This document shows, in pieces, positions 1,120-43,603 of a stretch of 50,366 nucleotides of DNA. Where the stretch lies: assembly GCA_900543035.1 (NCBI GenBank), contig UQPV01000012.1, forward strand, positions 1 through 50,366. The letters run 5' to 3'. Origin of the DNA: an uncultured Solobacterium sp. (GTDB lineage: Bacteria; Bacillota_I; Bacilli_A; Erysipelotrichales; Erysipelotrichaceae). The stretch's first letter is position 1. The number at the start of each line of letters is the position of its first letter. The position numbers and the translations under genes were made by a program. The notes beneath the pieces were generated by a model. The model was given only the letters and a program-made list of their open reading frames with translations. It did not search any database and was not told where the DNA came from.

Positions 1120-1157
1120 AAAAAGGATACCTTTACCTTTTCTTGGTATTGGTATCC
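1120..1157 (-). terminator. Terminator of the VWA/tubulin-like operon
   Basis: The minus-strand RNA forms GGATACC-AATACC pairing with GGTAAAGGTATCC, followed by five T residues. It lies 11 bases beyond the stop codon of the last operon gene, which supports 1,168-12,827 being one transcription unit. Confidence 0.75.
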
Positions 1158-1167
1158 TCTTTGTTTA

Positions 1168-4100
1168 TCATTTGAGTGGTTCGTGTATATGTTCGAATGG
1201 TGTCCTCAGCGTGCTTTGGGTAGTGCTGAGGGGGTATCTGGTGATGTAGTAGAGGAAGCCTCTGCCGTATTCGTCGTCTCTTGCTCTGGTGATGAGCTCT
1301 TCGCGTCTGGCGTGGGCTTGTTCTCCGATCAACAACATATACTGGATCTCTACCCATTTGGCCATGCCCTCGTATACGGCGGGCATCAGGTCTCCGCCAT
1401 ATCTGGCCATCAGCTCTTTCTCGTTCCATGTCGTGTACTGCCAGATGTGGGTCAGCTCATGAACGAGGGTGGCGATGAAGGCATTGCGCGGCGCGCCGTT
1501 TTCCACATAGATCGTGTAATTGCCATGGCGGTCACGGATCGCGACGCCGAGCACTCTGTTGCTGTAGCCGGCGCTTGGCACGAAGCTCTTGCCCAGCTTG
1601 CGATGCAGCGTATTGGCATCGACCATCTCCAGCTTGATGGCTGCAGTGATCCGCACGCCGAAGAAGGCTTCATAATTCTGAATGGTGATATCGTAGATGT
1701 GTCTGAACTCCTCTACGGTATGCACGGCTGTCCGGCTGCATTCCGGGCAGCGCTCACGTCCGTCCGCGAGCACCTCATAATCCACATCAGCGAGGCTGCG
1801 GGCACAGAAATCACAGCGATGCGCATCATCAGGATTGAAATCATTCCGTTTGGCCGCATGGATATTCTCCCTGGCCTCCTTCAGAATGTTGTGGTCAAAG
1901 CCGAACGTCTTCAGATACGTCCATGTCTCTTCCAGATCCAGACAGGACAGCATCTCCTCCCGGCCAAACAACAGATAGTGTGACTTCGCATACGCGTTCG
2001 GCTGTGGCTGCGGCGTTTCCTCCTGTCCGCTTTCTTCCGTGCTCTCCGGCTGTGGCCCTGCCGTTTCATCCATCTGCACATTTTCCTTTTTCTTCCGTCT
2101 GAAGATGCGCTTCAGCCAGCGCTTGAAGCGATAGGACAGACGCTGTCTGGCATTTTTCGGCGTATTGGGCGGGATCGGCAGCGGGACTTCCTGTTCCTCT
2201 TCTTGCTGTATCGTCTCATCCGGACGGGTCAGCCGCTCCAGATGCCAGTCGAGATAATCGCAGACGATCTCCAAGATGCGCTCCAGGTTGCGCTCGATCG
2301 AGATGATCATGCCCAGATCGAGCTGGCTGTCTTCCAAGATATAGATGCTTTCCGGATCGATATCGCCCGTCAACGGATGCACGATGCCCTCCAGCTGTTC
2401 CTGTTCCTCAGGCGTCAATGCCGTCGACGCGCTCAGGTAATCACAGTTATCCGGATAGACCGTGCGGAAGATCTCATTGAGCAGCATGCACAGCGTGACA
2501 CGCACTGCTTCACTGATCTTCGGCAGCTTCAGCCTGAGCACGGTCTTGCGCACATAGCTGCGGCGCGGCACATCATCGAGAAGCACCCTTCTGGCATTGA
2601 CCATGTCATGATGCCCGTGCATCTCCAGGAAACCTGCCGTATCGGCCGTCATGTTCATCGCCGCCGAAGTGACCTCGATGCCGTCATGCACGACCGTCTT
2701 TGTCTCTGCGCCGCTCTCCTTCAGCGTATAGCTGCGGATCTGGCGGTAAGAGATGCGGCCATGGATATGATCGGCAGCCCTGCGCAGGACGACGCCCTTT
2801 TCCTGATTGATGCGGATCACCTCATAATACTTGCCCGCGATCGTGATGAACTGTCCAGGCAGATACATCTGGCAGATCTGACCCAGCAGATTGGCGCCCA
2901 GGAAGTGCATATCCTGCTCATCCTCTGCCACATAGCCGGCATTGTGCAGATCGCTCAGATACGTGTCGATGAAGCGCTGATCATCGATATACAGCTCCGT
3001 ATGGAACTCCTCATCCATGGTGATCTCATCGTATAAGCCGACCTGCTTCATCTGGATCAGACGGCTCAGGTCCTCATCGACACCATCCGGGATGAAATAC
3101 AGACGGATCTGCTCGCCCAGGAAAGCCGGGATATTTTCCACCTCACCGAACAACAGTTCCAGCTGTGTGCGCACTTCTTCGATGCGCACCGGAGAGATGA
3201 CCATGCGCATGATCAGCTCGAGCACCACATTGCGCGGTGTGCGGGCAAAATCCGGGGCAAAGGATGGAATGGCCTTCGGGTCACGGATGAAGATCTCCGC
3301 ATTGTCGTTCATGTACTCTCGAAGCAGATACTGCGGCGCGATCACATGGACGAACGACTGATCACGGCCGCGGGTGAAGAACTGTCTGGCCATCTCGAAG
3401 AGGTTATGATACTCATCCTCTACGACCACGCATGCCTCACGGCTTTGCGCCGCGCCCCAGAGGTTCGGGACAAACTCCAGCACCTCGCCGATGCGATGCT
3501 GCTTAAATGGAATGCCGGTGTAATCACAGATGAGCGGATAATACTGTCCGGCGATCCACTTCATGTCTACGACCGGGAAGCTGTCATAGGCGTACCAGCT
3601 GACTTTGCGCACGCCGTATTTCAACGAGACCATCGCCACTTCGCTGCCGACGCCCAGATAACGCGCCACGCCTGGGAACAGCTTATGGTGCATATTGCGA
3701 GCGTCGGCATCCCACATCACAAACTGTGATGAGGAAGCGCCCGACTTGGTCGCGTTGACCTCGATGATGCTCGTCTTCAGGATATGAGAGAGCGCATCGA
3801 CCAAACCATCGCTGTTTTTGTCAAAGATGCTGAACTGCGTGCCCTCATTCAGCTTGCGCGCCAGCATATACAGCGCCGTCTGCGCTGTCGCTACGATACG
3901 CGAAGGCTCCAGCAGCACCACATGGGTCACATCCGCAAAGAACGCTTTATTGCTTTCATGCAGGCTCAGGTCAAAGATCTGCGAGATTGACAGGATGCCG
4001 ACATCCGGCGCAGAGGCCTGTGCCTTCAGCACGCCGACATTCCATAAGAACGGCAGATGGCTCACTTCCACCACCGCGTCCTTGACCCACTCGATCACAT

Positions 4101-5130
4101 CGTCGATGATGGCGTCGCGGCCGCAGATGATGAGCACCCGTTCATGCGACATCAATGCCCGGTTGATCGCGAAGAACAGATAGACCGTCAGGTCGCGATA
4201 GAATGGGGTGGAGAACAGCACGCTCTGGTGATTGAGGATATGCAGCGTGGCATCCACATACTGAGAATCCACCGGATATCCCTTTTTCACCAGCTGCTGA
4301 AAATATGTTCCGCACAGCTTGCGCAGATGATCTTCGCTGGCCATGAGCGTCTCCAGATAATCCTGGGAACCATCTTTATGATTCAGCCCCTTTTCCCTGG
4401 CGCCGCCATTGAGCATCGCCTCAGGGAAGATGCGGCCCAGCACGACGCGCAAACGGGCATAGTTTGCCCGAAACAGGCTCACTTCATCTTCGCCGCCGAC
4501 TTGTGTCCTCGCTTCGCTTGCAGTCAGCCCGTCCATGAAATAGACGATCTCAGCAAGCACCATCAGCCCGAGCACCGGATAGAACGGCACCTGCCAGATG
4601 CCAGGCTCGTTGATGTAAAGGATGAGGGCGAACAGGCCGAAGGAAACGATGCACCCGCCGCTGCGCATCCATTTGAGCACACGGCGCATATCGCCATACT
4701 GATCCTTCAGCACCCAGCGGGTCCGCTCCTCCTCCCATTCATAACACATCCCGGAGGTGTAATCGAACAAAGGGACGTATCTGCTCCACAGCTTCACGAA
4801 CAGCGGCAGGAATATCCGCTTGATCAGGATGAAGCCGATCATCAGCAGCACGTTCATCAGGATCATGAAGAATCCCGATGCTGCCGAAGTCAGAAATTCC
4901 AAAAACGGCGCCATCGAAGCCAGCCACTGCAGGAAGCGCAGCACCAGCGTGCTGATGTCATCGAGGAATACATTCAGCACCAGCGCATAGACGAACGCAA
5001 GCAGAGGCGCCGCAAACTGATAGGCCCGCAGCTCCCGGTCGAGATTCTGCCTGTTCTCCCATCTGAACAACAGGAAGAACACGCCATAGATGCCGGCCAG
5101 AAACAAACCGAACAACAGGACCTGCCTCAT
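1168..5130 (-). CDS. Giant membrane protein with zinc ribbon and HExxH metallopeptidase-like domain
   Basis: This is the last gene of the four-gene operon and encodes 1,320 residues. Five hydrophobic spans are visible near residues 4-22, 39-56, 79-103, 157-172 and 181-199. They are followed by a very large soluble region. Near 1106-1134 there is a zinc-ribbon pattern, CDFC then CPEC. Near 1225 the sequence VHELTHIW gives an HExxH motif with a following Glu in EGMAKW, the pattern of a gluzincin-type metallopeptidase. The central part (about 320-760) has alternating hydrophobic strands such as RVLIICG and THVVLLEPS. They recall a helicase/NTPase core but show no clear Walker A, so an inactive NTPase-like fold is only a guess. 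A charged, proline-rich linker with KKKENVQ-type basic residues precedes the ribbon. The start overlaps the upstream stop as ATGA, with AAGGAGG just before it, indicating translational coupling. The role is unknown. Peptidase activity at the membrane within the tubulin-like/VWA system is an inference. Confidence 0.8.
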   Translation of the reverse strand: MRQVLLFGLFLAGIYGVFFLLFRWENRQNLDRELRAYQFAAPLLAFVYALVLNVFLDDISTLVLRFLQWLASMAPFLEFLTSAASGFFMILMNVLLMIGFILIKRIFLPLFVKLWSRYVPLFDYTSGMCYEWEEERTRWVLKDQYGDMRRVLKWMRSGGCIVSFGLFALILYINEPGIWQVPFYPVLGLMVLAEIVYFMDGLTASEARTQVGGEDEVSLFRANYARLRVVLGRIFPEAMLNGGAREKGLNHKDGSQDYLETLMASEDHLRKLCGTYFQQLVKKGYPVDSQYVDATLHILNHQSVLFSTPFYRDLTVYLFFAINRALMSHERVLIICGRDAIIDDVIEWVKDAVVEVSHLPFLWNVGVLKAQASAPDVGILSISQIFDLSLHESNKAFFADVTHVVLLEPSRIVATAQTALYMLARKLNEGTQFSIFDKNSDGLVDALSHILKTSIIEVNATKSGASSSQFVMWDADARNMHHKLFPGVARYLGVGSEVAMVSLKYGVRKVSWYAYDSFPVVDMKWIAGQYYPLICDYTGIPFKQHRIGEVLEFVPNLWGAAQSREACVVVEDEYHNLFEMARQFFTRGRDQSFVHVIAPQYLLREYMNDNAEIFIRDPKAIPSFAPDFARTPRNVVLELIMRMVISPVRIEEVRTQLELLFGEVENIPAFLGEQIRLYFIPDGVDEDLSRLIQMKQVGLYDEITMDEEFHTELYIDDQRFIDTYLSDLHNAGYVAEDEQDMHFLGANLLGQICQMYLPGQFITIAGKYYEVIRINQEKGVVLRRAADHIHGRISYRQIRSYTLKESGAETKTVVHDGIEVTSAAMNMTADTAGFLEMHGHHDMVNARRVLLDDVPRRSYVRKTVLRLKLPKISEAVRVTLCMLLNEIFRTVYPDNCDYLSASTALTPEEQEQLEGIVHPLTGDIDPESIYILEDSQLDLGMIISIERNLERILEIVCDYLDWHLERLTRPDETIQQEEEQEVPLPIPPNTPKNARQRLSYRFKRWLKRIFRRKKKENVQMDETAGPQPESTEESGQEETPQPQPNAYAKSHYLLFGREEMLSCLDLEETWTYLKTFGFDHNILKEARENIHAAKRNDFNPDDAHRCDFCARSLADVDYEVLADGRERCPECSRTAVHTVEEFRHIYDITIQNYEAFFGVRITAAIKLEMVDANTLHRKLGKSFVPSAGYSNRVLGVAIRDRHGNYTIYVENGAPRNAFIATLVHELTHIWQYTTWNEKELMARYGGDLMPAVYEGMAKWVEIQYMLLIGEQAHARREELITRARDDEYGRGFLYYITRYPLSTTQSTLRTPFEHIHEPLK

Positions 5131-6962
5131 GATTCCGCCTCCTTCCGGATGATCATCTGCTCGATGAAGGAGAACGGAGAAGACAAGTATTCCGCATCCT
5201 CATTGAGGTGGACCGGGTATGTCTGCTCACCGCGCTGATATACATAATACAATGATGTCTTAGGATCTTCCTTCATGTAGTCAAAGCCGCGTACGCTGTC
5301 CTGGCTGTATTGCCGGCTGAGCGCGCGGTCCAGCGGTCTGCACCATTCTTCCAGCTGACGCTGACATTCCTTCAGCCGGTGAACATGCATCCGCAGCAGC
5401 TTTTCATTCTCATCGAGCGATTCATCGCCGTGCATGAGCTGATAAAGCAGAGACTTTCCCTTCATGAAAGAAGAGAGCGCGCTCAGGTATTCCGCGTACT
5501 GTCGGCTGCTGTCCTGCACCCGCTTGACGATGCTGCGCATGACCTCATTGAACTTCCCGATGGCCACCATGAGCAGATGCCGGTTATAGATCAGCGCAAA
5601 AAGCGCAGCGACGGCCACCGTCAAGATCAGCACGCCGCTGACCATGAGGCTTTCAGGAAGCAGATGCAGGCGCGATGCGGCCATCACGAAAGGAACAAGT
5701 CCCAGTGCATACAGGAAAAGAGCAAACAGCACCGTGCCCAGCGTAAGCGCAAAGCCGCTGCGGCGGCGCATGATGCGGCGCACCTCGCGCTGCGCCTCGT
5801 CCTGTTCCTCACGGAATGCTTCTGCGTTCAGGATATCCGTGGTCTCGCATTGTGCCATTTCCAGTTCCAGACGGTCCACATCCTCATGCAGCTCCTCCAG
5901 CTGAAATTCATCGAGATAGACTGAATGTCCGTTTTTCTCTGTTTCGAACACCCCTTTGCGGCGGGCTTCCCTCGCCGCCTTCTTCAGCGCGCGCCTGGGC
6001 TGCTTCAGATAGCTCTTCAACTGTTTATCCACTTCGTCACGCCGCTGTTTCCACAGCTGTTCATCCAGCTTCGGCCTGTCCTTCACCAGCGTAAAGCCCT
6101 TCTTGGATACGGTCAGGCTGCCAGGCTGATCCTGATAGACCTCGACATCGATGCTGTTGTGGATCTTGGGCTTTTCCTGTGCGGCATTTTTCTCTCTGAC
6201 CCGGTTGATGAACTCGCGGGCGCGCTGCAGCCGCAGCTCCACAGCCTGCAGACGGCTGTAATACTCGCTGAATCCGGCATATTCTGCCTCCTCATTCAGC
6301 TCGATGATCAGATTATACAGCTCATAAGCCTGCAGATCGCTGGAGGGGATCTCGTTGAATGCCAGCGTATGGATGCCCATGGCCAGCTCCATGCGCGCGC
6401 CCGGCGTCACGATATTGTGCTTCCTGAGCAGGTTCATCTTGAGAAAGCGGCAGTTGGCCGGATAATTGCAGCGATTCCAGAATTCCGGATCGACCGCATC
6501 CTCATTGCGTATGCTGCGCATCTTCTTGATGTCCTGACGTTCCTGCGTCACCGCCAGCAGAAAGATCTGATCAGGATCGGTGAACCGGCGCTCTTCCCGC
6601 TCCTGTTCCTGCGGCATATCGATCTGCGAGGATAAGCCGCCTTCTTCCTCATGGAACGTGATCCAAGGCGGGATATGGCCCAGCATCTGGGCACAGCGCG
6701 CATAATCCGCCGCTTGATCGCTTCTGGCGATATCGAACGGATTGCGGGTCCTGATGACATCCTCATCGCCCACCAGCAGGATGCGCCATTCATTTTGTTC
6801 CTGCACCTGTTCTTCCAGCTGCGGCAGCGCTGTCTGCACGCTGCCGCCCTGGCGGTTCCAGCGGATCATGCGGATCTGTTCTTCCCGCGCAGTCTCATAG
6901 AGGGGCAGATAGTCTTTCAGCAGCGGTTCGAGCTTTGCATCGACTGCCACGACTGTAAACAT
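5127..6962 (-). CDS. Coiled-coil protein with two membrane spans, component of the tubulin-like/VWA operon
   Basis: The encoded protein is 611 residues. The first ~390 residues are soluble and rich in Glu, Gln, Arg and Leu, with long probable coiled-coil segments. Two adjacent membrane spans follow (around 403-430 and 440-465: ALTLGTVLFALFLYALG and VSGVLILTVAVAALFALIY). About 145 further residues follow, again coiled-coil-like. No catalytic motif was recognised. The N-terminus (MFTVVAVDAKLEP) could form a small alpha/beta domain, with ILLVGDED near 60-67. The start has AAGGAGGG eight bases upstream and lies 15 bases after the tubulin-like gene. The stop overlaps the next gene's ATG. By context it is probably a membrane scaffold linking the tubulin-like protein to the envelope, but this is inference. 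Confidence 0.75.
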   Translation of the reverse strand: MFTVVAVDAKLEPLLKDYLPLYETAREEQIRMIRWNRQGGSVQTALPQLEEQVQEQNEWRILLVGDEDVIRTRNPFDIARSDQAADYARCAQMLGHIPPWITFHEEEGGLSSQIDMPQEQEREERRFTDPDQIFLLAVTQERQDIKKMRSIRNEDAVDPEFWNRCNYPANCRFLKMNLLRKHNIVTPGARMELAMGIHTLAFNEIPSSDLQAYELYNLIIELNEEAEYAGFSEYYSRLQAVELRLQRAREFINRVREKNAAQEKPKIHNSIDVEVYQDQPGSLTVSKKGFTLVKDRPKLDEQLWKQRRDEVDKQLKSYLKQPRRALKKAAREARRKGVFETEKNGHSVYLDEFQLEELHEDVDRLELEMAQCETTDILNAEAFREEQDEAQREVRRIMRRRSGFALTLGTVLFALFLYALGLVPFVMAASRLHLLPESLMVSGVLILTVAVAALFALIYNRHLLMVAIGKFNEVMRSIVKRVQDSSRQYAEYLSALSSFMKGKSLLYQLMHGDESLDENEKLLRMHVHRLKECQRQLEEWCRPLDRALSRQYSQDSVRGFDYMKEDPKTSLYYVYQRGEQTYPVHLNEDAEYLSSPFSFIEQMIIRKEAES

Positions 6963-6977
6963 GTCTCATCCCTCCTT

Positions 6978-9900
6978 CTACTGATTCACAGACGCTCCCT
7001 TTTCCGATCCTGCTTCGCGGACAAATGTGCCCTCGAAGTTCTCACTGTGCTTTCTGGCACTGGCGATCGCCTGGTGATAATACGTATCTTTCATCTGTTC
7101 GGCCAGATCATGGGCGGCTTCATTGCCGATCTTGCGCAGCTCAAGCACGACCGCGCTCTGGATCTGGCTGGTCAGCGCATCGACCGCGATGCCCTCATAA
7201 CCAGAACCATAGCCTTCGATCTCCGGCAGGTTGTTCATGAACAGCTCAAACTGGCGGAACAGGATCTTGCCATATTCATCATCCACATCTTCCTCATTTT
7301 CAAAGTGTTCCACATAGTTTCTGAGGATCTCGAAGATGCAGCTGATCATCGTATCGGTCCAGCCGTGGAAATAGCTCTTGCTCGGGCAGGAGCACTTGTA
7401 CAGCAGCGGCAGTTCGAACACGCTGCGCACGCTTTCGCTGAATTCCGCCAGACGGAACCGGTTCAGACTGCGGATCAGCTCAGATTCTCTGACCCTGATC
7501 TTGTTCTTCTCCTGGCGCTGGATATCCGCGGCGCTGTCCTCCAGGATCGCCTGTACTGCCAGCGGATTGATGATCATGGCGTCAAACACCTCATACAGCC
7601 GGTCGCACTGTGTGCCATTGGACACGGTCAGCTCACACAGATTCTGATACTGAGAATTTGCGGACTCCGCAAATGTCATCTCATACAGATATTCTTTTCC
7701 GGATTTGTTCTTCGGACGATAGATGATCTTGCGGAACAGCAGCCCGTTCACGAATGCCTTGCAGATGCGGGATTCCAGTTCTTTCTGATAGCTTTCATTG
7801 AGGTCAGGCAGATAAGAGATCAGATGCCAGTTCTTATGGATATGCGGCGTCACGATATCGGTCTCTTTCGAGTCCGGCTTCACCTGATTGACACAGTCAT
7901 AATATGCCGTGAAATAATTGCCCGCCTTCTGATCGATCGTCTCAGACTTGACCGGCGGAGAGAACCGCTTGAAATCCTGTGCCTTCAGGTTGTAGATGGA
8001 CCGGAAGAACACGACTTCGTTTTTCGGTGTCAGATCGCTGGTCACTCCGCCAAAGTCGATCAGCTCTTCGGTGATCAGCCTGGTGCGGTCATCATATTCT
8101 GTCTTGAGCAAAGCTTCATTGAAGCAGCAGGAATCGATGATGCGCGGCTGGAAGCCCTTCGGCGCATCGATGAACGGCAATGCCAGGTTCTTGGCTGCCG
8201 CGATGACCGAATGCACGGCATGCAGCTTTTCCCTCGGCTCAAACGCGTCATCCAGGATCTCTGCTTCCTTCTCGATGGCCTCGATGATGTCCATATCGAT
8301 GATGGTATCACAGTTCTCGGATACGGTCTGTTTCCAGAAGCCCATGATCGTGTCTTCAAACATATCCTGGAAATAGCGGCTGCCGGCATCTTCATCCATA
8401 TGCCTGCTCTTTTCCGCCGTGATCTCGCCTTTCTCCTTCAGCACCGCATAGGAGCGGACCTTCTCAAAGATGGACGCGCACAGATCGCCTGGCAGTTCGA
8501 AAGTACCGGTCGTATTGACGGACTTCCTGTTCAGCGCATCCAGACATTCCTTGGTCGCGCACACATAGCGCACCGGCTGATCGCTGTCGATCTCATATTT
8601 CTTGCCGATGGATTCGATGCCATGATTGATCTTATGCACATCGCCGGCAAAGGTGTTGTAGAATACCTCAAAAGCGTCAGAGAGCTTGCGCACATATTCC
8701 AGCGCCTCGCGGTAGATGATCATGCGCGTATTGCTCGTGATGAACTCCTGGATGCTGTTTTCCATGTCGCGGAAGCTTTCCAGCAGCATGTTGCGAGCAT
8801 CCTGATCCTCATGCTTGCGCAGCATCGTATGCGCCAGTCCCTTGATGGTGCGGGAATTCGGCCGGATATTGGCATTGATGTAAGACTGTGCGTCCGTGCT
8901 GGCCCGCTTCTTGTCATCATTCTGGAACAGGCGGCTGTCAAAGTTTTCCCAATATTCTTTCTGCTCAGATACCGAGCGCTCTTCCGTGTTCAAGGCCTTG
9001 ATCAGCTCTTCTTCCGCATTATACAGGAAATAACGCACAGCGTTAGGATGGATCATCTTGCCGGCGCCGCTCATCAGGTTGCTCTCCAGATTGTGGAAAG
9101 CGTTCAGATTGACCGAACGCACCGGTTTGCGTGAAGAGGAGAACAGATCGAACGCCAGGGAACGGCCCTGCTCCTCTGTGCGTTCCTCGGCCATGAACCG
9201 ATAACGCATGAGCAGCTTCAAGGCGTCGGTGAAGCCTTCTTCCGGCGCGTCTTTGTTTTCTTCACCAGATTCCAGTTCATTGATGCGGGCATCGAGATCT
9301 TCCTTGGCCGTATCCAGATCGGTGAAAGACTGCTGCACCGTATCATCGACATAACGAGTCAGGGCGCCCAGATAACGTTCCCACTTGGATTCCTCGATGA
9401 TCATGCCGGACTCATCATAGACATTGGTCTCCCGAATGATCGCCTTGGCAAATCCGTCTTCATTCTTCGCTTTGTTGCGGATCGAATTGATATAATGGCG
9501 GCCGCGTTTCGGCGCTGCGGAGACGACGCCGCGGCTGCGTGCTTCATTGGCATCCATCATCACTTCGCGGTATTCATCATCGATGACGAGCCATTCTCTG
9601 GACACCGCATCCCGGGCCCAGTTCAGCGCGATATAATCACGCACATCCTGATAAGGGTAAACGAGGGTGGATGCGCCCGCGCCGCAGTAGTTGTTGCGGC
9701 CATGCGACTTCACGCGCTCACGGATCGTATTATCCTCTGAAGAGTTCTGACGGGAATTGGTCGGACCGATCGACTGTGCATAGATGCAGTTGGCCGCATG
9801 GGCGAGCAAGTCATCCTTGGATTTCATCTTCTCGCTCTCGATGTTGTCCCGAGAGAACAGGAAGCAGAAGTCAAATGGCGCTTCATCATAGACATCGACT

Positions 9901-10643
9901 TCATCCGGGCTGCCGGCCTTCGGCACCTCAAAGCGCAGATCATCATAGCGCTTGTCCAGCGTACCGAACGCCTTCTGCATGAACGCGTCGATCTCGCGCA
10001 ATGTCGCATAGGCATTGCAATACAGATTGTTGCGCTCTGACTCGGACTTGATGACCGAATGCATCACTTCCGGAAGCAGGAAGAATCCGCGGATCACTGA
10101 CGCGCTGCGGTTGTTCATGGTCACGAGATAGTTCTTGATATACATGGATACCGGCAGGATCAGGCCGCTTCCGGTACCGCCGGCCAGTGAGCTGATGATG
10201 ACGATGCGTGTCGCTTGGGTCGATTCCTCGCTGGTGAGCTTGTACAGATTATCGATCGCTTCGTGCAGCGGTTCCAGATCGCCGCTGCGGATGGCCGTAT
10301 CCATGACCAGACGCGAGATGGCACGCACCTGCCCAGCACCCTCGCTGGGTGTCTTGCGGTTCAGGATGTTGTTGATGGGGAACCAGTTGTTCTTCGCGTT
10401 CTCATCATTGTACAGGTATTCGCCGACCGTCAGCCGGGATGAGGTCTGCACCGTGCGCACATCCGGATAGTCCCGCCGGATGGTCCGCAGTTCATTGACA
10501 TCCGTATCAAAAGCCACAAAGCTCAGATACTTCTTCTGTTCTTCATTCGCCAGCCGGGAGACCATCGCGACGATCTTGCATCCCTGGCCGCCCAGTCCTA
10601 CGAGCAGCGTCGGCGCCAGCCGGTTATCATTGTGTTTTGCCAT
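6978..10643 (-). CDS. Tubulin/FtsZ-like domain protein (Tubulin_2-type), about 1,221 residues
   Basis: The N-terminus carries the two loops expected of a tubulin/FtsZ-fold GTPase. A glycine-rich first loop, VGLGGQGCK, lies at about residues 15-23, and the tubulin signature AGGTGSG at about 154-160, within a Rossmann-like pattern of strands and helices. It is more than three times as long as FtsZ. The remaining ~850 residues are mostly helical with no membrane span, so this is not the division FtsZ. It resembles the family called tubulin-like domain proteins (FtsZl-1 in the comparative-genomics literature), reported to neighbour VWA proteins and proposed to act in membrane remodelling. The start MAKHNDN is preferred because AGGAGG lies eight bases upstream; the ATG two codons earlier is too close. 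It lies 15 bases past the VWA stop. GTP binding and polymerisation are predictions. Confidence 0.85.
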   Translation of the reverse strand: MAKHNDNRLAPTLLVGLGGQGCKIVAMVSRLANEEQKKYLSFVAFDTDVNELRTIRRDYPDVRTVQTSSRLTVGEYLYNDENAKNNWFPINNILNRKTPSEGAGQVRAISRLVMDTAIRSGDLEPLHEAIDNLYKLTSEESTQATRIVIISSLAGGTGSGLILPVSMYIKNYLVTMNNRSASVIRGFFLLPEVMHSVIKSESERNNLYCNAYATLREIDAFMQKAFGTLDKRYDDLRFEVPKAGSPDEVDVYDEAPFDFCFLFSRDNIESEKMKSKDDLLAHAANCIYAQSIGPTNSRQNSSEDNTIRERVKSHGRNNYCGAGASTLVYPYQDVRDYIALNWARDAVSREWLVIDDEYREVMMDANEARSRGVVSAAPKRGRHYINSIRNKAKNEDGFAKAIIRETNVYDESGMIIEESKWERYLGALTRYVDDTVQQSFTDLDTAKEDLDARINELESGEENKDAPEEGFTDALKLLMRYRFMAEERTEEQGRSLAFDLFSSSRKPVRSVNLNAFHNLESNLMSGAGKMIHPNAVRYFLYNAEEELIKALNTEERSVSEQKEYWENFDSRLFQNDDKKRASTDAQSYINANIRPNSRTIKGLAHTMLRKHEDQDARNMLLESFRDMENSIQEFITSNTRMIIYREALEYVRKLSDAFEVFYNTFAGDVHKINHGIESIGKKYEIDSDQPVRYVCATKECLDALNRKSVNTTGTFELPGDLCASIFEKVRSYAVLKEKGEITAEKSRHMDEDAGSRYFQDMFEDTIMGFWKQTVSENCDTIIDMDIIEAIEKEAEILDDAFEPREKLHAVHSVIAAAKNLALPFIDAPKGFQPRIIDSCCFNEALLKTEYDDRTRLITEELIDFGGVTSDLTPKNEVVFFRSIYNLKAQDFKRFSPPVKSETIDQKAGNYFTAYYDCVNQVKPDSKETDIVTPHIHKNWHLISYLPDLNESYQKELESRICKAFVNGLLFRKIIYRPKNKSGKEYLYEMTFAESANSQYQNLCELTVSNGTQCDRLYEVFDAMIINPLAVQAILEDSAADIQRQEKNKIRVRESELIRSLNRFRLAEFSESVRSVFELPLLYKCSCPSKSYFHGWTDTMISCIFEILRNYVEHFENEEDVDDEYGKILFRQFELFMNNLPEIEGYGSGYEGIAVDALTSQIQSAVVLELRKIGNEAAHDLAEQMKDTYYHQAIASARKHSENFEGTFVREAGSEKGASVNQ

Positions 10644-10658
10644 ATCCATTCCCTCCTC

Positions 10659-12827
10659 TTATGACTTATTGCGCTTGAAGCGGAAGATGAAGCTGCTTTT
10701 CGTGCTCGCCAGCCCGCTTCCTCTGTTTTTCGTCGTCTTGCAGCTGTACATGATCTGCTGACCGAGCTGCAGCTCCTTACGTCTGGACAGCCGCTCCAGT
10801 CCTTCGCAGAGATTCTTGTTCTTCTTATTGTCAAAATCCTTAGGATTGAGCAGGATCAATCCTCTTCCTGATGATTTCACCCGCAGGGACGGCGCGCTCT
10901 GCGAACATTTCGGATGCCGGATGGTGATCCGCCTGCGCACCGTGATCGGCAGGATCGGCAAGACAGACAATGGTTCTATCTTGACCTCTCTGGGTGCCGC
11001 ATACCGTTTGGGATCGCGGGAGCTGAGCGTCTTATCCTCATATTTCGTCATCTCCACATTAGGCGAGAGCTTTTTCTTGCCTAATCCGGTCGGTCCTCTG
11101 AATTTCATGAGCATGCAGAAGATGACCCATATGCCGATCATCCACATCCAATATTCCTTCAGGAAATCGATCGTCCGATCAAGCAGGGAGCGGTCATCCG
11201 TGATGGTCAGCTGACTGTCCAGCGTTCCTTCCGCGGTATAATCGACCATGTCTGCCTCGGCGCGGATCTTCAGATCCAGGTCTCCGACATAGGTGCGTGC
11301 GCGTTCCCCATCCTGATACTTCATCGTGATCTCAAAAGTGGAGACTTCTTTTCCTTTGCGCACTTCGAACTCGACATCCTGCGCACAGTAAATTTCCGGC
11401 AGGGGCATCGCATCCCACTGTGCCTGACTCAGCGGCTTTCCTTCATGGGTGATCCGCAAGGTCATCTGACTCTGGGGCAAGGTCTGCAGGCCGTAAGCAT
11501 CCGCATGGTCCAGCGTCATCTCCAGCGGGATGACCTTGGCCAGCACATTGTATTTCTGCGAGATGGATGTCCGGTTGTATTTCAGATATGTCGCCTCCAC
11601 AGCGATGTCCGCTTCGCCGATATCCACGGTGAATTCGTTGTCATTGCTGACTTCGACCTCTTTGCCGTTGTTGGTGATGGTGGCATCGGCATCGATCTCT
11701 CCCAGCAGCGGCGATTCGATGAATTCTCCGGATTCGTCATCGAGAAAGCCGACCCGGATCGTATATGTCCCGGCCTCCAGCGCATCATGATCGGTCACAT
11801 CCTGTGTGCCCTGGAAGATCCGGATGCCGACATCCACATTCGGTTTATAATAGATCTCCACCCGCTGTGCGCCTTGCACATCCAGCTGATAATCGCCCGG
11901 CTCGATCTCTTCTCCGTCTTTCGGCGCAAATACCGTGACGGTTCCCTTGAGATCTTTGGCAACGACGATGTGTTCCCGTTCATCTTCATAGTTTTTCGGG
12001 ATCAGATCGCTGTACTGCACATTCACTTCGCTCTCTTTCCGCAAAGCGCTTCCGCCGCTGATGCCGTTGATCTGAACGGCGTCGCCCTGCGCAAAGACGA
12101 TCAGCTGCGACATCGGCACATCAAACGAGAATGTCCCGTTCTGCGCATCGATCCCGCTCAGCGCATTCCGCTCGAAGATCTGATTGGAGATGGTCGTCAC
12201 CCGGTCGATGACCTCAGCGCTGCTGGCTGCATTTTCCGCGAAGATGCCATGCTCAGGATCGGTATCGACACGATCTGTATTCTGTCCGATGGTCAGGAAT
12301 ACGATCTTCATGCCGTCTGCAGTATATCCCCTGAAGGTCCGGTTCAGATCGGCGGGCTTGGTGCCGTCTTCATCAAACTGTCCGTCTGTCAGCACGATCA
12401 GCCATTTCTGATCGGCATTCTGCCGCTTCAGATGCTCGACGGCCTGAGATACCGCATTGTACGGCGTCCCCAGCGCCTGTTCCGTCTGCATATCATGGAT
12501 CCGGCTCACTCGCTGGCTGACCGGGTCCTTGCCGCTGACCGTGATCATGTCGGGGTTTCGCCCCGAGCTGCTGTTGGTGCTCATCGGAAAGATGTTGAGC
12601 GTATCCTTTTCCTCCAGCAAGGCCGCAAACACTTCCATCGCATACTTGGCCTGACACCAGGTGTCCACCCAGGTATCCCCGTTGATCAGCATCGACCCGG
12701 AATCATCATAGACCACGTTGAGCACCCGTGAAGGGGTGCTGTCCGCCTCTTCCTCTGCCAATGCCGCAAACGAAGACCCCGCCATCATCACGAACAAGAC
12801 CAGAACGATCTTGCATAGCTTTTTCAT
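10659..12827 (-). CDS. Membrane-anchored VWA-domain protein, first gene of the tubulin-like operon
   Basis: The start MKKLCKIVL is chosen because GGAGGAGG lies six bases upstream; two in-frame ATGs further upstream are less well placed. The protein has about 722 residues. A signal peptide (~1-24) is followed by a VWA domain of about 190 residues. Its metal-binding MIDAS motif DDSGS lies near residues 41-45, with a later VLTDGQFDEDG segment. Then come ~330 residues of beta-rich, Ig-like extracytoplasmic sequence. A single membrane span follows near 557-575 (WMWMIGIWVIFCMLM), and then a basic cytoplasmic tail of ~145 residues. VWA domains usually bind protein ligands through a divalent metal. 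Here the domain would face outside while the tail could contact the tubulin-like protein. The operon order and small gaps imply one complex, which is inference. Confidence 0.85.
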   Translation of the reverse strand: MKKLCKIVLVLFVMMAGSSFAALAEEEADSTPSRVLNVVYDDSGSMLINGDTWVDTWCQAKYAMEVFAALLEEKDTLNIFPMSTNSSSGRNPDMITVSGKDPVSQRVSRIHDMQTEQALGTPYNAVSQAVEHLKRQNADQKWLIVLTDGQFDEDGTKPADLNRTFRGYTADGMKIVFLTIGQNTDRVDTDPEHGIFAENAASSAEVIDRVTTISNQIFERNALSGIDAQNGTFSFDVPMSQLIVFAQGDAVQINGISGGSALRKESEVNVQYSDLIPKNYEDEREHIVVAKDLKGTVTVFAPKDGEEIEPGDYQLDVQGAQRVEIYYKPNVDVGIRIFQGTQDVTDHDALEAGTYTIRVGFLDDESGEFIESPLLGEIDADATITNNGKEVEVSNDNEFTVDIGEADIAVEATYLKYNRTSISQKYNVLAKVIPLEMTLDHADAYGLQTLPQSQMTLRITHEGKPLSQAQWDAMPLPEIYCAQDVEFEVRKGKEVSTFEITMKYQDGERARTYVGDLDLKIRAEADMVDYTAEGTLDSQLTITDDRSLLDRTIDFLKEYWMWMIGIWVIFCMLMKFRGPTGLGKKKLSPNVEMTKYEDKTLSSRDPKRYAAPREVKIEPLSVLPILPITVRRRITIRHPKCSQSAPSLRVKSSGRGLILLNPKDFDNKKNKNLCEGLERLSRRKELQLGQQIMYSCKTTKNRGSGLASTKSSFIFRFKRNKS

Positions 12828-12884: not shown

Positions 12885-12893
12885 ATTTTATCA
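12885..12893 (-). promoter_or_regulatory. Extended -10 promoter of the VWA/tubulin-like operon
   Basis: On the minus strand the sequence reads TGATAAAAT, a TGn extension plus TAAAAT. It lies about 60 bases before the VWA start. No good -35 is seen 16-18 bases upstream. Confidence 0.5.
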
Positions 12894-13749: not shown

Positions 13750-15393
13750 TTATCGTTCCTGCCACTCGATCGACACTTCCTTGCCCGCATGCGCCAGGCC
13801 GATCAAGATTGCTCTTCCCTGCAATTCTGCATCATAGTGTTTCTCTTTGATCTGCATGACTGCCTCTTTGGCGCTCTCCTCCAATCGTTCCGCATCCGCT
13901 TCCTTCAGATACTTGAACTCCAGCACATAAGAAGCCAGTCCTTCCTTCTTCGCCTTCAGGATGATGTCGCATCGTCCTTTGCCTTCCTCACGATTGCTGA
14001 TGATGTCATATTCATTGCTCAGCCATGCGCACATCCCCAGAAACAGCACATGATAGCTGTTCTCATCCTTCAGGTCATGGTAGCTTGGCAGACTGAGCAG
14101 CATATCCGCATAGCTCTCTGCAAACCGCTCCCGCTCCTCATAGCGCAGCCCATTGAACATCGCGGACAGATTGCTTTCTGATACGTTCAGGTAGCTTGCC
14201 GTCAGATCCCGGAACTCCTGCTGCACCTCCTCATTGGGGATGCGGAGCACATAGCGGCCGTCCCGTGCCGAGATGACCTTCTCGATCGTCAGGTATCCCG
14301 CATTCACGAACAATCCCCATAAGCTCTCTGTGCTGCTTACCTCGAAGAAGCTTGTTTCCATCCGCACCAGCGTCTCCAGCTTCCCTTTCTCGATCAGTTC
14401 CTCATATCCTCGTGCAAATGTCAGGTCTCTTCCTTCCATCGCCTTGCGGATCATCTTGTTGCTGCTCGTGTTGACCCAGTAGGGCTCCAATACTTCGCGG
14501 CTGGCATAGTTCAGGATGGACCATGGATTGTAGATCTCCTCCTTGCCGAAATGATAGCCGTCATACATCGCCTTGACCTCTTCATCCAGCTTCAGCCCAT
14601 AATATTCCAGCACCGCCTTCGTCTCTGCTTCGGTAAAGCCGAAATACTGGGCATATTCCTGATCTTTTACCGTGCATACCACCAGATTGTTCAGATCGCT
14701 GAAGATGTTTTCCTTGGCTACCCGCTGTATGCCCGTCAGCATCGCATGCTGCAGGCTCGTCGATGCCTTCAGCGCGTTATGCAGCAAAGAAGACAAGCCG
14801 CCGCGGATCTCTTCATAATACCCGTTTACATGTGCCTCGATGAACGGTGTATCATACTCATCGATGAACACCATCACCTTCTTGCCATGATGCTTCTCCA
14901 ACTTTTCGATCAGAAATGCAAGCGTGTTTCCAATGCCATCAATTTCTCCGTTCTCTGTATTCAGCAGCGCTTTTCTGATCTTTTGATATTCATCTGCGTC
15001 AAACTCCGTCATCGTCGTCTCAAATGCTTGTCGGTGCCGGTCATATTCTTTGCGCAGCTGATATTTGATCGCTTTCGTCAATTCCTGCTTGCTGTTCTTC
15101 GCACTGGCAAATGAAAGGAAGACGGTCGGATACTGATTCATCTCTGCGGCATATTCAGTATCCATGATCGCGGTATCCTTGAAGATCTCCTTTGCATCCT
15201 TTGTCACATCAAAGAATTCTGCCATCATCGACATATTGATGGTCTTTCCGAAGCGCCGTGGTCTCGTGATCAGTGTGACGATGCTCTTTCTTCTTAAAAA
15301 CTCCTGGATCATCATCGACTTATCCACAAAATAATAGTCTTCTTTACGCAGCCGCTCATAATCGGATACGCCGATCGGTATTGCTTTCTTCAT
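13750..15393 (-). CDS. AAA-ATPase-like protein with C-terminal PD-(D/E)XK nuclease-like domain
   Basis: The protein has about 547 residues from ATG (MKKAIPIGVSD). A GTG three codons earlier is less likely because AAGG spaces better to the ATG. The N-terminal ATPase-like part has a P-loop variant RPRRFGKT (~44-51), a Walker B VMVFIDEYDTP, and the MLTGIQRVAKENIFSDLNN block typical of this family. The C-terminus has the nuclease-like pattern CDIIL followed by LEFKYL (the D...ExK core). These genes are frequently multi-copy in gut Firmicutes and Bacteroidota, and their role is unsettled; nucleic-acid processing or mobile behaviour has been suggested. A second, nearly identical copy starts at the right end of the window (50,175 onward). 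Here it is followed by a phosphoesterase gene. Confidence 0.85.
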   Translation of the reverse strand: MKKAIPIGVSDYERLRKEDYYFVDKSMMIQEFLRRKSIVTLITRPRRFGKTINMSMMAEFFDVTKDAKEIFKDTAIMDTEYAAEMNQYPTVFLSFASAKNSKQELTKAIKYQLRKEYDRHRQAFETTMTEFDADEYQKIRKALLNTENGEIDGIGNTLAFLIEKLEKHHGKKVMVFIDEYDTPFIEAHVNGYYEEIRGGLSSLLHNALKASTSLQHAMLTGIQRVAKENIFSDLNNLVVCTVKDQEYAQYFGFTEAETKAVLEYYGLKLDEEVKAMYDGYHFGKEEIYNPWSILNYASREVLEPYWVNTSSNKMIRKAMEGRDLTFARGYEELIEKGKLETLVRMETSFFEVSSTESLWGLFVNAGYLTIEKVISARDGRYVLRIPNEEVQQEFRDLTASYLNVSESNLSAMFNGLRYEERERFAESYADMLLSLPSYHDLKDENSYHVLFLGMCAWLSNEYDIISNREEGKGRCDIILKAKKEGLASYVLEFKYLKEADAERLEESAKEAVMQIKEKHYDAELQGRAILIGLAHAGKEVSIEWQER

Positions 15394-15419
15394 CTGCCTC
15401 ACCTTGCTTTCTTATGCTC

Positions 15420-15789: not shown

Positions 15790-16701
15790 ATGAAACCTAC
15801 ACTGACTAAGATTCTGGCCGCTTCTGGCGCAGTCCTCCTGCTGGCAGGATGGGGCGTGCAGGCTGCGACCGCAACACCACAGACCGACGATACTGCAAAC
15901 ACTGTTACAGAAGACACCTCTGCTGCAGTTTCCATGGAAGAGGCAAAGACGATCGCGTTAAATGACGCGGGAGTCAACGCAGAAGATGCGCGTTTCTACG
16001 AAACTAAGGGAGATTACGAAGACGGCAAAGTCGTTTACGAAATCGAGTTCGTCGCCGGCAACATCGAATATGACTATGAGATCGAAAAAGCGACCGGCAA
16101 GATCTTGAACAAGGATCACGAGATCGAAAGCGAAAACTATGTCAGAACCACGCAAGACAACACGATCGCTTCAAACGATACTGCTGCATCAGATAAAGGC
16201 ACTGCCGCAGATCCTTCATCGCGTGCTGCATCTTCCGCAAGCTCTGACAATATCACGACAGCAAATTCTGGGATCACGCTGGAAAACGCGAAAACGATCG
16301 CGCTGACCAATGCCGGTGTCAATGCCGCAGACGCCACCTTCGTCAAAGCGAAAGAAGATCGCGACGATGGCAGAACGGTCTATGAGATCGAATTCTATAC
16401 TGCCAATGGCGAATATGACTATGAGATCGATAAGACGACGGGCAAGATCCTCGACATTGACTATGACGCAGAAGCCTATGCCCCTGCTGCAAGCAATGCC
16501 ATCTCGATCGATGAAGCCAAGAAGATCGCGCTTGCCAAGGTAAGCGGAGCAAGCGATCAGCACATCCGCATCGAAGCGGATCATGATGATGGCAGACTGG
16601 TCTATGAAGGCGAAATTCACTATGGCCGCGTAGAATACGAATTTGAGATCGATGGCAGCACCGGCGCCATCATCGAATGGGACGCAGATTATGACGATTA
16701 A
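15790..16701 (+). CDS. Secreted protein with three PepSY-like repeats
   Basis: The protein is 303 residues, starting at ATG with AGGGAGG upstream. A signal peptide covers about 1-25. Three PepSY-like repeats follow at about 48-112, 161-228 and 238-300. Each begins with a helix of the type ITLENAKTIAL and ends with EYDYEIDKTTGKIL-like sequence. A Ser/Thr/Ala-rich linker separates repeats one and two. The segment LLLAGW looks like a lipobox whose cysteine has become tryptophan, so this copy should be released or held by its signal anchor rather than lipidated. It is strongly acidic. PepSY domains are thought to inhibit or modulate peptidases or sense envelope conditions. Its paralog lies immediately downstream. 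Confidence 0.85.
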   Translation: MKPTLTKILAASGAVLLLAGWGVQAATATPQTDDTANTVTEDTSAAVSMEEAKTIALNDAGVNAEDARFYETKGDYEDGKVVYEIEFVAGNIEYDYEIEKATGKILNKDHEIESENYVRTTQDNTIASNDTAASDKGTAADPSSRAASSASSDNITTANSGITLENAKTIALTNAGVNAADATFVKAKEDRDDGRTVYEIEFYTANGEYDYEIDKTTGKILDIDYDAEAYAPAASNAISIDEAKKIALAKVSGASDQHIRIEADHDDGRLVYEGEIHYGRVEYEFEIDGSTGAIIEWDADYDD

Positions 16702-16763: not shown

Positions 16764-16839
16764 AGGCATATGCACGAGACATTTGAAATCCCGCGCGAAA
16801 TGTGGCACACTATAGACAATGAAGAAAAGAGGGATGCCC

Positions 16840-17586
16840 ATGAAACCAAAGATCATTTATGCACTTGCGATCTCCTGTCTGTTTCTGGTCAGCGGCTGCG
16901 GTTCCGCACAACCAGAAAATCAATCGATCTCCCTGGAAGAAGCGAAGTCCGCAGCCTTGGATGACGCGCAGCTGGGAATCGATGAAGTGGAATTTCTGAA
17001 GACCGATCGCAATACTGACGGAGACACATCTTATTATGATATCCAGTTTCTTGTGAATGGCACCATCTATAAATATCAGATCAATACCGAAACCGGGGCG
17101 ATCCTGCATGTCGACTACGAAGCTGAGTCAGCTTCTTCAGACACTGATACACCGGAAGCTTCCGCCATCACTTTGGATCAGGCCCGTGCCATTGCGTTGG
17201 ATCATGCCGGGATCAGCGATGGAGACGCGACCTTCGTCAAAGAGCAGACCGGAACGAGCAGCTATGAGATCGAATTTTACAGTGGCAGCAATGAATATGA
17301 TTATGAGATCGATAAAGCGACCGGCGCGATCCTGAATGTCGACCGCGACGCAGAAGATTACACGCCTCCTCAGCAAAACGGCCTTACGCTAGATGAAGCC
17401 AGAACATTGGCGCTCTCCCGCGTCAGCGGCGCCACAGAGCGCCATATCGAGATCGAACGAGATGAGGACGACGGCCACATCATCTATGAAGGAGAGATCC
17501 ACTACGGCAATGCCGAATATGAATTTGAGATCGATGCCGCCAGCGGGACCATCCTGGAATGGACCGTGGATTACGAGGACGACTGA
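16840..17586 (+). CDS. Lipoprotein with three PepSY-like repeats, paralog of the upstream gene
   Basis: The protein is 248 residues from the ATG at 16840, which has AGAGGG six bases upstream; earlier in-frame ATGs fit less well. A type II signal peptide ends in the lipobox LVSGC, placing Cys20 as the lipidated residue. Three PepSY-like repeats lie near 30-100, 108-172 and 178-245, and the last matches the final repeat of the upstream protein closely (VYEGEIHYG versus IYEGEIHYG). It would sit on the outer face of the membrane. The pair arose by tandem duplication, one copy lipidated and one not. A TATAGA -10-like element lies 28 bases upstream, so it may have its own promoter. Confidence 0.85.
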   Translation: MKPKIIYALAISCLFLVSGCGSAQPENQSISLEEAKSAALDDAQLGIDEVEFLKTDRNTDGDTSYYDIQFLVNGTIYKYQINTETGAILHVDYEAESASSDTDTPEASAITLDQARAIALDHAGISDGDATFVKEQTGTSSYEIEFYSGSNEYDYEIDKATGAILNVDRDAEDYTPPQQNGLTLDEARTLALSRVSGATERHIEIERDEDDGHIIYEGEIHYGNAEYEFEIDAASGTILEWTVDYEDD

Positions 17587-28896: not shown

Positions 28897-28945
28897 TTCG
28901 ATCTCCTCACTTTCCTGTCGATGGCATCCGCCATCAACCACTTGT

Positions 28946-28974
28946 ATGATAGGTCTAACCATGCAGGGAATCAA
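28946..28974 (-). promoter_or_regulatory. Promoter of the first GH20 gene, with weak cre-like core
   Basis: TTGATT, 17 bases, then TATCAT on the minus strand, about 50 bases before the start. The -35 is embedded in AAAGCGCTTGATT, which shares the AAAGCGCTT core of catabolite-responsive elements but mismatches the flanks. Confidence 0.6.
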
Positions 28975-42941: not shown

Positions 42942-43080
42942 TTCTCCTCCAATTTTATGCTTCTTCTGTCTGCCCACTGGCTGTCTGCAGCCGCCTTTCA
43001 CCTCTCTTTCAGGAACAGCAATTCCGGCTGTTTCGCATAAAGTCCATTCTAAAATCTGCAGCCGGACCAGAATCAATCCT

Positions 43081-43109
43081 ATTATATCCTTGGCAAGTTT
43101 TTTTGTAAA
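43081..43109 (-). promoter_or_regulatory. Promoter of the GH84 gene
   Basis: TTTACA, a 17-base spacer and a perfect TATAAT on the minus strand, about 140 bases upstream of the start. The leader between promoter and start has some hairpin potential but no recognised riboswitch. Confidence 0.8.
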
Positions 43110-43117
43110 CGCTAACA
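43104..43117 (+). promoter_or_regulatory. Catabolite-responsive element (cre) over the GH84 -35 box
   Basis: TGTAAACGCTAACA fits every position of the CcpA consensus TGWAANCGNTNWCA. It covers the -35 hexamer of the GH84 promoter, so CcpA binding should block RNA polymerase when preferred sugars are present. Confidence 0.85.
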
Positions 43118-43603
43118 CGGAAGCTTTTTTGACACAAATCACAAAACCGTCTTCCGAAAAACACAAGATTTTCCATATTATCCCTTATTGATCAGATTTT
43201 ATGACCTTTTTTCTCCCTGCTCCAGACGATGAGCGCGCCTCCATATTTTTCTGCGCAGCGCTGGACATGGCTGCAAGACAACAGCAGCGCGAAGGTGAAG
43301 AAGCGATAGATCAGCAAGGCAGACATCGCGTACACCTTGCCGAAGGAGGACGCGAACAAGAGGAGATAAGGCAGCTCGGCCGTCTCTTCCACGAACCAGT
43401 CTGCCCGCGCCTGCCATCTGGACCGGCGAAACAGCTGCTGCACGATGCGGCAGATCAAACGTACGCGACTGTCAAAAAGCTGAGATGATCTGCGCAAAAT
43501 GAGAAGTTTTTGGATAAAACGGCAGAAGTGTGGCTTTTCTTTCTGCAGAAAATACAGTATGGTATATAAAACTGCGTAGGCAGAGGAGTGGAGGGACACA
43601 CAT
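43118..43603. other. Unresolved region upstream of the GH84 promoter, possible small membrane protein remnant
   Basis: No gene is convincing here. One minus-strand frame ending at 43192 encodes a plausible C-terminal part. Its last ~80 residues include a hydrophobic stretch (YAMSALLIYRFFTFALLLS) and a basic tail (SREKKGHKI), but I see no start codon with a ribosome binding site. A plus-strand frame over the same bases is likely a shadow. It may be a decayed gene. The right end contains the probable promoter of the next plus-strand gene, with TATAAA near 43564. Confidence 0.3.

Follow-up and report, generated by a model that had tools for sequence, protein, structure and literature searches.

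A tightly packed four-gene cassette in an uncultured Solobacterium

We analyzed a 50,366-nucleotide stretch of DNA, referred to here as the window, from an uncultured Solobacterium sp. (contig UQPV01000012.1 of assembly GCA_900543035.1, positions 1-50,366 of the forward strand). The minus strand, on which all the cassette features described below lie, carries four intact open reading frames in the order V, T, C and M, at the coordinates first reported for them in an earlier note made from the letters of this DNA. V (10659..12827) encodes a 722-residue protein with a signal peptide, a VWA domain, a C-terminal span and a basic tail, and T (6978..10649) encodes a 1,223-residue tubulin-like protein (FtsZl1) with a Tubulin_2 domain. 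C (5127..6962) encodes a 611-residue protein that, according to hydropathy, has two spans (residues 411-458) and long cytosolic parts, and M (1168..5130) encodes a protein of 1,320 residues. V and T are separated by 9 bases, T and C by 15 bases, and C and M overlap by 4 bases. The earlier note had given gaps of 15, 15 and -4 bases; its first value is obtained with the second ATG of T as the start, in agreement with the identical 1,221-residue database copy (P0005).

Folding of the region downstream of M predicted a minus-strand hairpin with a U run at 1120..1162 (-19.8 kcal/mol over 63 bases, compared with a shuffle mean of -6.6, z -5.55), in support of the terminator previously placed at 1120-1157; a simple terminator scan of the window did not itself list this hairpin. 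The promoter claimed at 12885-12893 was not recovered, as a sigma-70 scan returned 7 sites against a chance expectation of 8.5, none of them at that place.

Distant genomes share the V-T-C-M order

A single-sequence scan of genome contigs found no relative, whereas a search with an alignment of 20 T proteins found 77 loci. Open reading frames were called by script and searched with iterated profiles of V, T, C and M. The counts given below cover 76 loci, and loci with room are those with enough sequence on the relevant side. One locus (L032), in which a longer antisense frame hid T, stands outside these counts; a six-frame search there recovered T, C and M, along with a V split into two pieces. 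According to their titles, the loci belong to Lachnospiraceae, Oscillospiraceae, other Clostridia, Erysipelotrichaceae, actinobacteria and Treponema, and further ones come from metagenome-assembled genomes labelled Myxococcales, Desulfobacca and Proteobacteria. The carriers include bacteria of the gut and of soil.

The genes were arranged in the order V-T-C-M on one strand. V was found in 69 of the 70 loci with room, C in 61/63 and M in 58/60, and all three were present beside T in 53 of 55. The four genes are neighbours in relatives; the opposite result would have refuted the earlier note. The V missing from one locus (L009) was found by a six-frame search, and in both exceptions to the 53/55 count C and M were present elsewhere in the same genome. 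In a Tissierella locus (L067) about 14.5 kb of other genes split T, and the second part of T, C and M followed further along the contig; in L053, C and M lay on another contig, not beside V-T, and no T was found within 6.9 kb before C. Some loci, such as L070, contained broken or split genes. The distances between the genes were short, with median gaps of 23, 19 and -8 bases (V-T, T-C and C-M) and with gaps under 100 bases in 66/70, 61/61 and 59/61 cases. The four proteins also diverged together: Mantel r was 0.80-0.955 across the window and 49 loci (50 sets), with the highest permuted value at 0.23. Identity to the window proteins in the aligned sets was 38-53% for T, 24-39% for M, 17-25% for C and 18-33% for V. 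The four-gene arrangement is beyond chance, as its order recurs in distant genomes. A mere adjacency of four genes that share no function would fit the separation of V-T from C-M in L053, but it is very improbable in the face of 53/55 complete loci, gaps mostly under 100 bases and matched divergence.

Two further observations concern the layout of individual loci. The interrupted T of Tissierella lies at 10013-12079 of L067 and at 9087-10565 of L083, and a termite-gut metagenome-assembled genome (L052) carries two cassettes in a row, T-C-M followed by V-T-C-M.

T is an FtsZl1 protein with a predicted complete tubulin fold

The N-terminus of T matched the Tubulin_2 profile (PF13809) with an E-value of 1.3e-62 and 212.6 bits (cut-off 27), so that a tubulin-fold match is present where the earlier note had expected it. 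Both loops named in that note, GLGGQG and GGTGSG, are present in T, and GGTGSG was kept in 50/50 aligned proteins. The number of T relatives found at E up to 0.001 was 941 among 7,998 scored candidates. The Tubulin_2 match and the neighbouring VWA gene bear out the proposed membership in the FtsZl-1 family, spelled FtsZl1 in the 2010 paper that described it (PMC2875224).

The predicted model of T aligned with solved tubulins over the range 12-921, up to 956, with both domains of the fold covered: 302 of the 330 CetZ1 residues were aligned, and about 335-344 of those of tubulins. Unlike in CetZ, FtsZ and tubulins, the fold is split by a helical insert of ~420 residues, and ~240 further residues stand behind it. 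The model secondary structure and the alignment to solved tubulins place the insert at residues ~385-805 (8235..9497) and the second tubulin domain at residues ~806-955 (7785..8234), with approximate borders in both cases. The loop predicted to take the place of the T7 loop, which we assigned by the succession of structural elements in the model, comprises residues 295-307 (9729..9767), of which S303, E305, D306 and N307 were identical in 50/50 proteins. As in other FtsZl1 proteins, the model has an extended helical middle and a mostly helical C-terminal part (with no prediction of a coiled coil as such). A profile search of solved structures with T gave nothing convincing. Taken together, the model and the alignments suggest that T retains a complete but interrupted tubulin fold. 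This would speak to a question that the available text of PMC2875224 left undecided in 2010, namely whether FtsZl1 keeps the whole fold. Within the tubulin superfamily, FtsZl1 is one of the branches that have diverged most. As far as the available text of a 2023 study (PMC9871819) goes, the FtsZl1 group was used there to root the family.

FtsZ was present in 12/12 genomes tested, nine of which carry the cassette, indicating that T is no replacement of FtsZ. Among genomes sampled from two phyla, 2/299 and 1/296 had a full-length T (1/298 and 0/295 when the seeds, one per sample, were excluded), and M was found in those same genomes only. Six and three further genomes of these samples had weak partial Tubulin_2 matches without M. 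The restriction of M to genomes with full-length T indicates that M marks one FtsZl1 branch, which is rare and scattered. The Tubulin_2 proteins of plasmid records were all distant (six records, covering at most 30% of T), and viral contigs yielded no relative.

V carries a conserved metal site and C is a predicted membrane protein

The VWA_2 match of V (E 0.0019) was under its cut-off. The metal ion-dependent adhesion site (MIDAS) is conserved: D41, S43, S45 and T121 were identical in all 48 rows with letters at these positions, and D148 in 50/50. V starts with a signal-like span. Its second span, near residue 560 in the window protein, fell under the hydropathy threshold and was assigned by eye; among 68 longer V proteins, two spans were scored in 52, one in six, three in eight and four in two. 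With the VWA domain outside and the tail inside, V would answer the objection of a reviewer, contained in the available text of PMC2875224, that an outer VWA and an inner tubulin cannot meet. A profile search of solved structures with V found nothing convincing.

Hydropathy of 60 C proteins scored two spans in 49 and three in 11. C had no Pfam match over the cut-off, and a profile search of solved structures found no relative of it. Weak Pfam and PADLOC matches of C (best E 0.0033) were set aside.

M is predicted to join a membrane part to a helicase-like body

M was predicted from hydropathy to begin with five spans (residues 4-196, 4543..5121). They are followed by a predicted helicase-like core of tandem RecA domains that has neither Walker A nor DExH (residues ~254-620, 3271..4371) and by the remaining MrfA-like body (residues ~632-968, 2227..3237), delimited by alignment of the model to MrfA and comprising, in the model, helical, OB-like, long antiparallel-strand and DUF1998-like parts. 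The model of M aligned to MrfA along its length (803 columns), and the profile of the RecA core agreed with those of YprA helicases (P 3.2e-4 in local mode, compared with 0.021 for the best of seven controls). For the second half, where YprA helicases have an OB-CON-DUF1998 canopy with four cysteines, the structural model follows MrfA, but the sequence profiles disagreed (P 0.48 and 0.17) and no Pfam model was matched by more than 1/48 M members. Walker A was found in 0/48 M cores, and the only occurrence of its pattern among 120 further relatives lay outside the core, at residue 1326. The positions of the ATP motifs read PFYxD and EPS instead, a conserved replacement. A body of ~700 residues, the largest part of M, is predicted to have a helicase fold of the YprA type.

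The fold likeness connects M with MrfA and with the YprA helicases of DISARM, Druantia and ARMADA, as far as the main text of PMC12458937 describes them. M differs from them in lacking Walker A and DExH, and in having spans in front, a zinc ribbon and HExxH motif behind, and tubulin and VWA partners; that main text makes no mention of tubulin, vWA, transmembrane or metallopeptidase. The cassette suggests that a helicase family of DNA repair and phage defence was adapted here as a membrane component that has no ATP motifs.

The same fold raises the question of anti-phage or anti-plasmid defence, in which M would use the YprA-type body to sense foreign DNA at the membrane, with the response carried out by T and the peptidase. 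The modelled fold, the central place of YprA helicases in several defence systems (PMC12458937, main text) and the rare, scattered distribution of the cassette are in its favour, but no strong PADLOC model was found for V, T, C or M (best E 0.0031), the core set contains no nuclease, and viral contigs hold no relative. The flanking genes did not help this explanation either: for 145 of the 184 flanking proteins, defence models among the matches listed (25/77 families) were represented by one or two members each in a comparison that had no control set, and a defence-island reading of the flanks was rejected as unsupported. We therefore regard defence as improbable. Hardly more probable is a related possibility, a tubulin-driven transmembrane machine based on the inactive YprA-type body of M. 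In it, M would have given up DNA unwinding and, on the inner side of the membrane, would instead sense a nucleotide, a nucleic acid or the genome of an entering phage, and T assemblies would relay the state of M between the outer VWA and the cytosolic zinc peptidase. If true, this would connect phage-defence helicases with a cytoskeleton of bacteria.

Two other observations on M stand apart from its fold. A profile match to the designed repeat protein 7rdr (E 4.9e-9) was rejected as the sum of eight weak repeat matches, and a Treponema M (L031, 15716-20800) carries an extension of ~630 residues ahead of the region alignable to the window protein.

The end of M is a separable zinc ribbon-HExxH module

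The C-terminal part of M (residues 1106-1254, 1369..1815) contains a zinc ribbon with C1106, C1109, C1128 and C1131, HELTH at 1224-1228, and E1254. Where letters were present, each cysteine was conserved in 36/37 relatives, H1224 in 35/36, E1225 in 36/36, and H1228 and E1254 each in 35/36, with constant spacing between the zinc ribbon and HExxH. The HELTH motif and CxxC zinc ribbon noticed earlier are thus present, the latter as two CxxC pairs. The description of M as a peptidase module was incomplete, as it missed the ~700-residue body with the predicted helicase fold.

HExxH with a later E and with a zinc ribbon in front resembles the arrangement in BSP, DUF6782, DUF6055 and DA1-like metallopeptidases, from which M differs in scoring mostly under the curated cut-offs. 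Whole M scored 22.4 bits with BSP (PF04450, cut-off 23.8), and its C-terminal part alone 24.7 bits, just over the cut-off. The DA1-like LIM peptidase model (PF12315) was matched by 7/30 M members with a best E of 0.016, and 299 genomes contained no PF12315 member over the cut-off; beyond these weak matches, a likeness of the M end to DA1-like proteins is presumed by us. In seven loci (L027, L035, L037, L043, L055, L065 and L034), of which the first six are actinobacterial, the zinc ribbon-HExxH part is a gene of its own, encoding 273-312 residues directly after M, which indicates a separable module.

The cassette as a four-protein set within FtsZl1 systems

As in the FtsZl1/vWA systems described in the available text of PMC2875224, a Tubulin_2 protein is encoded beside a VWA gene and further membrane proteins, and lineage-specific membrane partners without recognised domains are described there. 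In contrast, the GTPase, OmpA and kinase partners of that text, frequent in other lineages, are not part of the cassette, and none of them was among the matches listed (25/97 families) for 145 of the 184 flanking proteins. C, M, the helicase fold of M and the complete fold of T do not appear in that text, and C and M may be among the unnamed families of its supplements. The available parts of PMC10067837 and PMC5898192 contained nothing bearing on C or M. A literature search, with subscription papers and supplements outside its scope, found no paper on the V-T-C-M set beyond PMC2875224 and no experimental study of FtsZl1. The cassette provides a defined four-protein set for testing FtsZl1.

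The reshaping of membranes or production of vesicles that was put forward for FtsZl1 systems in 2010 would have T filaments bend the membrane, with V, C and M as anchors and the peptidase trimming anchors. The T family and the VWA partner are those of the proposal in PMC2875224, so far as its text is available, C and M add membrane spans, and the T fold is complete in the model. On the other side, no curvature-forming part was recognised, a reviewer in the same text already judged the proposal hard to decide, and the helicase fold and the enzymes of the fifth slot (see below) would be left unexplained. We consider remodelling possible but rather doubtful.

Our preferred explanation is that V, T, C and M, with the anatomy described above, form one coupled machine in and below the cytoplasmic membrane, which we hold to be slightly more probable than all else combined. 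V would be a single-pass protein whose outward VWA domain, with its intact metal site, binds a surface or wall ligand, and C would be a hairpin-anchored adaptor. M would provide a five-span base, a cytosolic YprA-type body without ATP motifs acting as a scaffold or ligand-binding regulator, and a zinc ribbon-HExxH end as the catalytic output, a putative peptidase. T, a putative cytosolic GTPase, would assemble on C and M. Binding of a ligand outside would be coupled to T assembly inside, so that the machine would cluster and the peptidase would act at chosen places. Sensing or adhesion by the VWA domain would thereby be coupled to a peptidase and to a tubulin-like assembly bound to the membrane. 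Of all this, the gene set, its order, the co-inheritance and the conserved motifs are observed, the tubulin and helicase folds and the topology are predicted by models, and a single physical complex, polymerisation of T, peptidase activity and the signalling direction are inferred. In favour of the machine are the conserved order, short gaps and matched divergence of the four genes, the confinement of M to genomes with full-length T, the conserved MIDAS, GGTGSG and T7-like residues, the modelled tubulin and helicase folds with the replaced ATP motifs, the constant zinc ribbon-HExxH spacing and the presence of FtsZ beside T. The order of these steps, including the direction of signalling, is tentative and much less probable than the machine itself. 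Of the envelope-spanning layout proposed in the earlier note, the external position of V is consistent with the predicted topology; the hydropathy and flanking charges of M place the peptidase part in the cytosol, so that of the four proteins only V would be mainly external.

Several results weigh against the coupled machine or its parts. The T7 loop is weak in the T model, where residues 300-304 have a predicted local distance difference test score (pLDDT) under 50, and the sequence profiles of T and FtsZ align over 113 columns only (P 0.012); as this alignment ends at about residue 170, the T7 assignment rests on the model. C is without a recognised fold, and the HHalign probability of M against MrfA was 25-39% in local mode. 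One locus (L056) reads HELTR where others have HELTH, which points to a possible loss of the peptidase in a part of the loci, and the C and M of L053 are not beside V-T.

The slot after M is variable

The position after M was occupied by FtsK/EccC-like, transglutaminase-like or other proteins, or by nothing, and the window has no fifth gene there. Proteins of one cluster followed the cassette directly in 21 loci; counted among loci with room, a member was present in 20 of 58. The long FtsK-like member tested matched FtsK/SpoIIIE (E 8.2e-17) and EccC (E 1.6e-16). Walker A was found in 14/21 members; of the seven without it, four are 192-208 residues long, two have 474 and 519 residues, and one (L030) runs off the end of its contig. 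As the members of 192-208 residues have no ATPase domain, the 21 loci do not stand for 21 ATPases.

The long members share the FtsK/SpoIIIE domain with EccC/EssC of type VII secretion, and one could imagine T and M as a membrane base for an FtsK/EccC-like ATPase that moves protein or DNA through the membrane in a type VII-like manner. This transport function is unlikely: the presence of cluster members after M in 21 loci, 14 of them with Walker A, would support it, but the window and most loci have no such ATPase, four members have no ATPase domain and, unlike EccC/EssC, 19/21 score no membrane span.

In nine loci a transglutaminase-like protein followed the cassette; the three tested matched PF01841, and a Cys-His-Asp pattern fits 6/9. 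A cluster with a GmrSD_C (HNH) member occurred in eight loci, all with actinobacterial titles (L027, L035, L037, L040, L043, L048, L055 and L065). The L035 member was tested and matched the model, as did 7/145 flanking proteins. Most members begin with a hydrophobic stretch, four are on the other strand, and three lie within ~110 bases after the cassette, with the others further off or upstream. The cluster may represent an effector, or may lie near the cassette by chance. Another neighbour cluster (cluster 5), on the opposite strand over the cassette end, was dropped, as it looks like antisense frames. The proteins encoded by two post-cassette genes of L025 (20356-23397) show an RyR domain, together with weak matches of the TrkA_N or RCK-like kind; the neighbour clusters to which they belong occurred in six and five loci.

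Other genes of the window

The rest of the window looks like the chromosome of a glycan-degrading bacterium, and also encodes phosphoglycerate kinase, serine hydroxymethyltransferase and a phosphotransferase system (PTS) permease. Three large minus-strand glycosidases with FIVAR repeats lie at 25927-28974 (GH20), 29918-35752 (GH20) and 37563-43166 (NAGidase); two of them contain F5/8 type C domains, and the trio makes up a glycan-degrading set. Beside the operon end, positions 1-1100 are AT-rich (38.5% GC over 1-2000, compared with 47-58% elsewhere) and include a reading frame of 195 residues without a Pfam match. Immediately upstream of the operon, 13750-15402 encodes a protein with AAA-ATPase_like and PDDEXK_9 domains, and the adjacent genes at 15790-16701 and 16819-17586 encode PepSY-repeat proteins.

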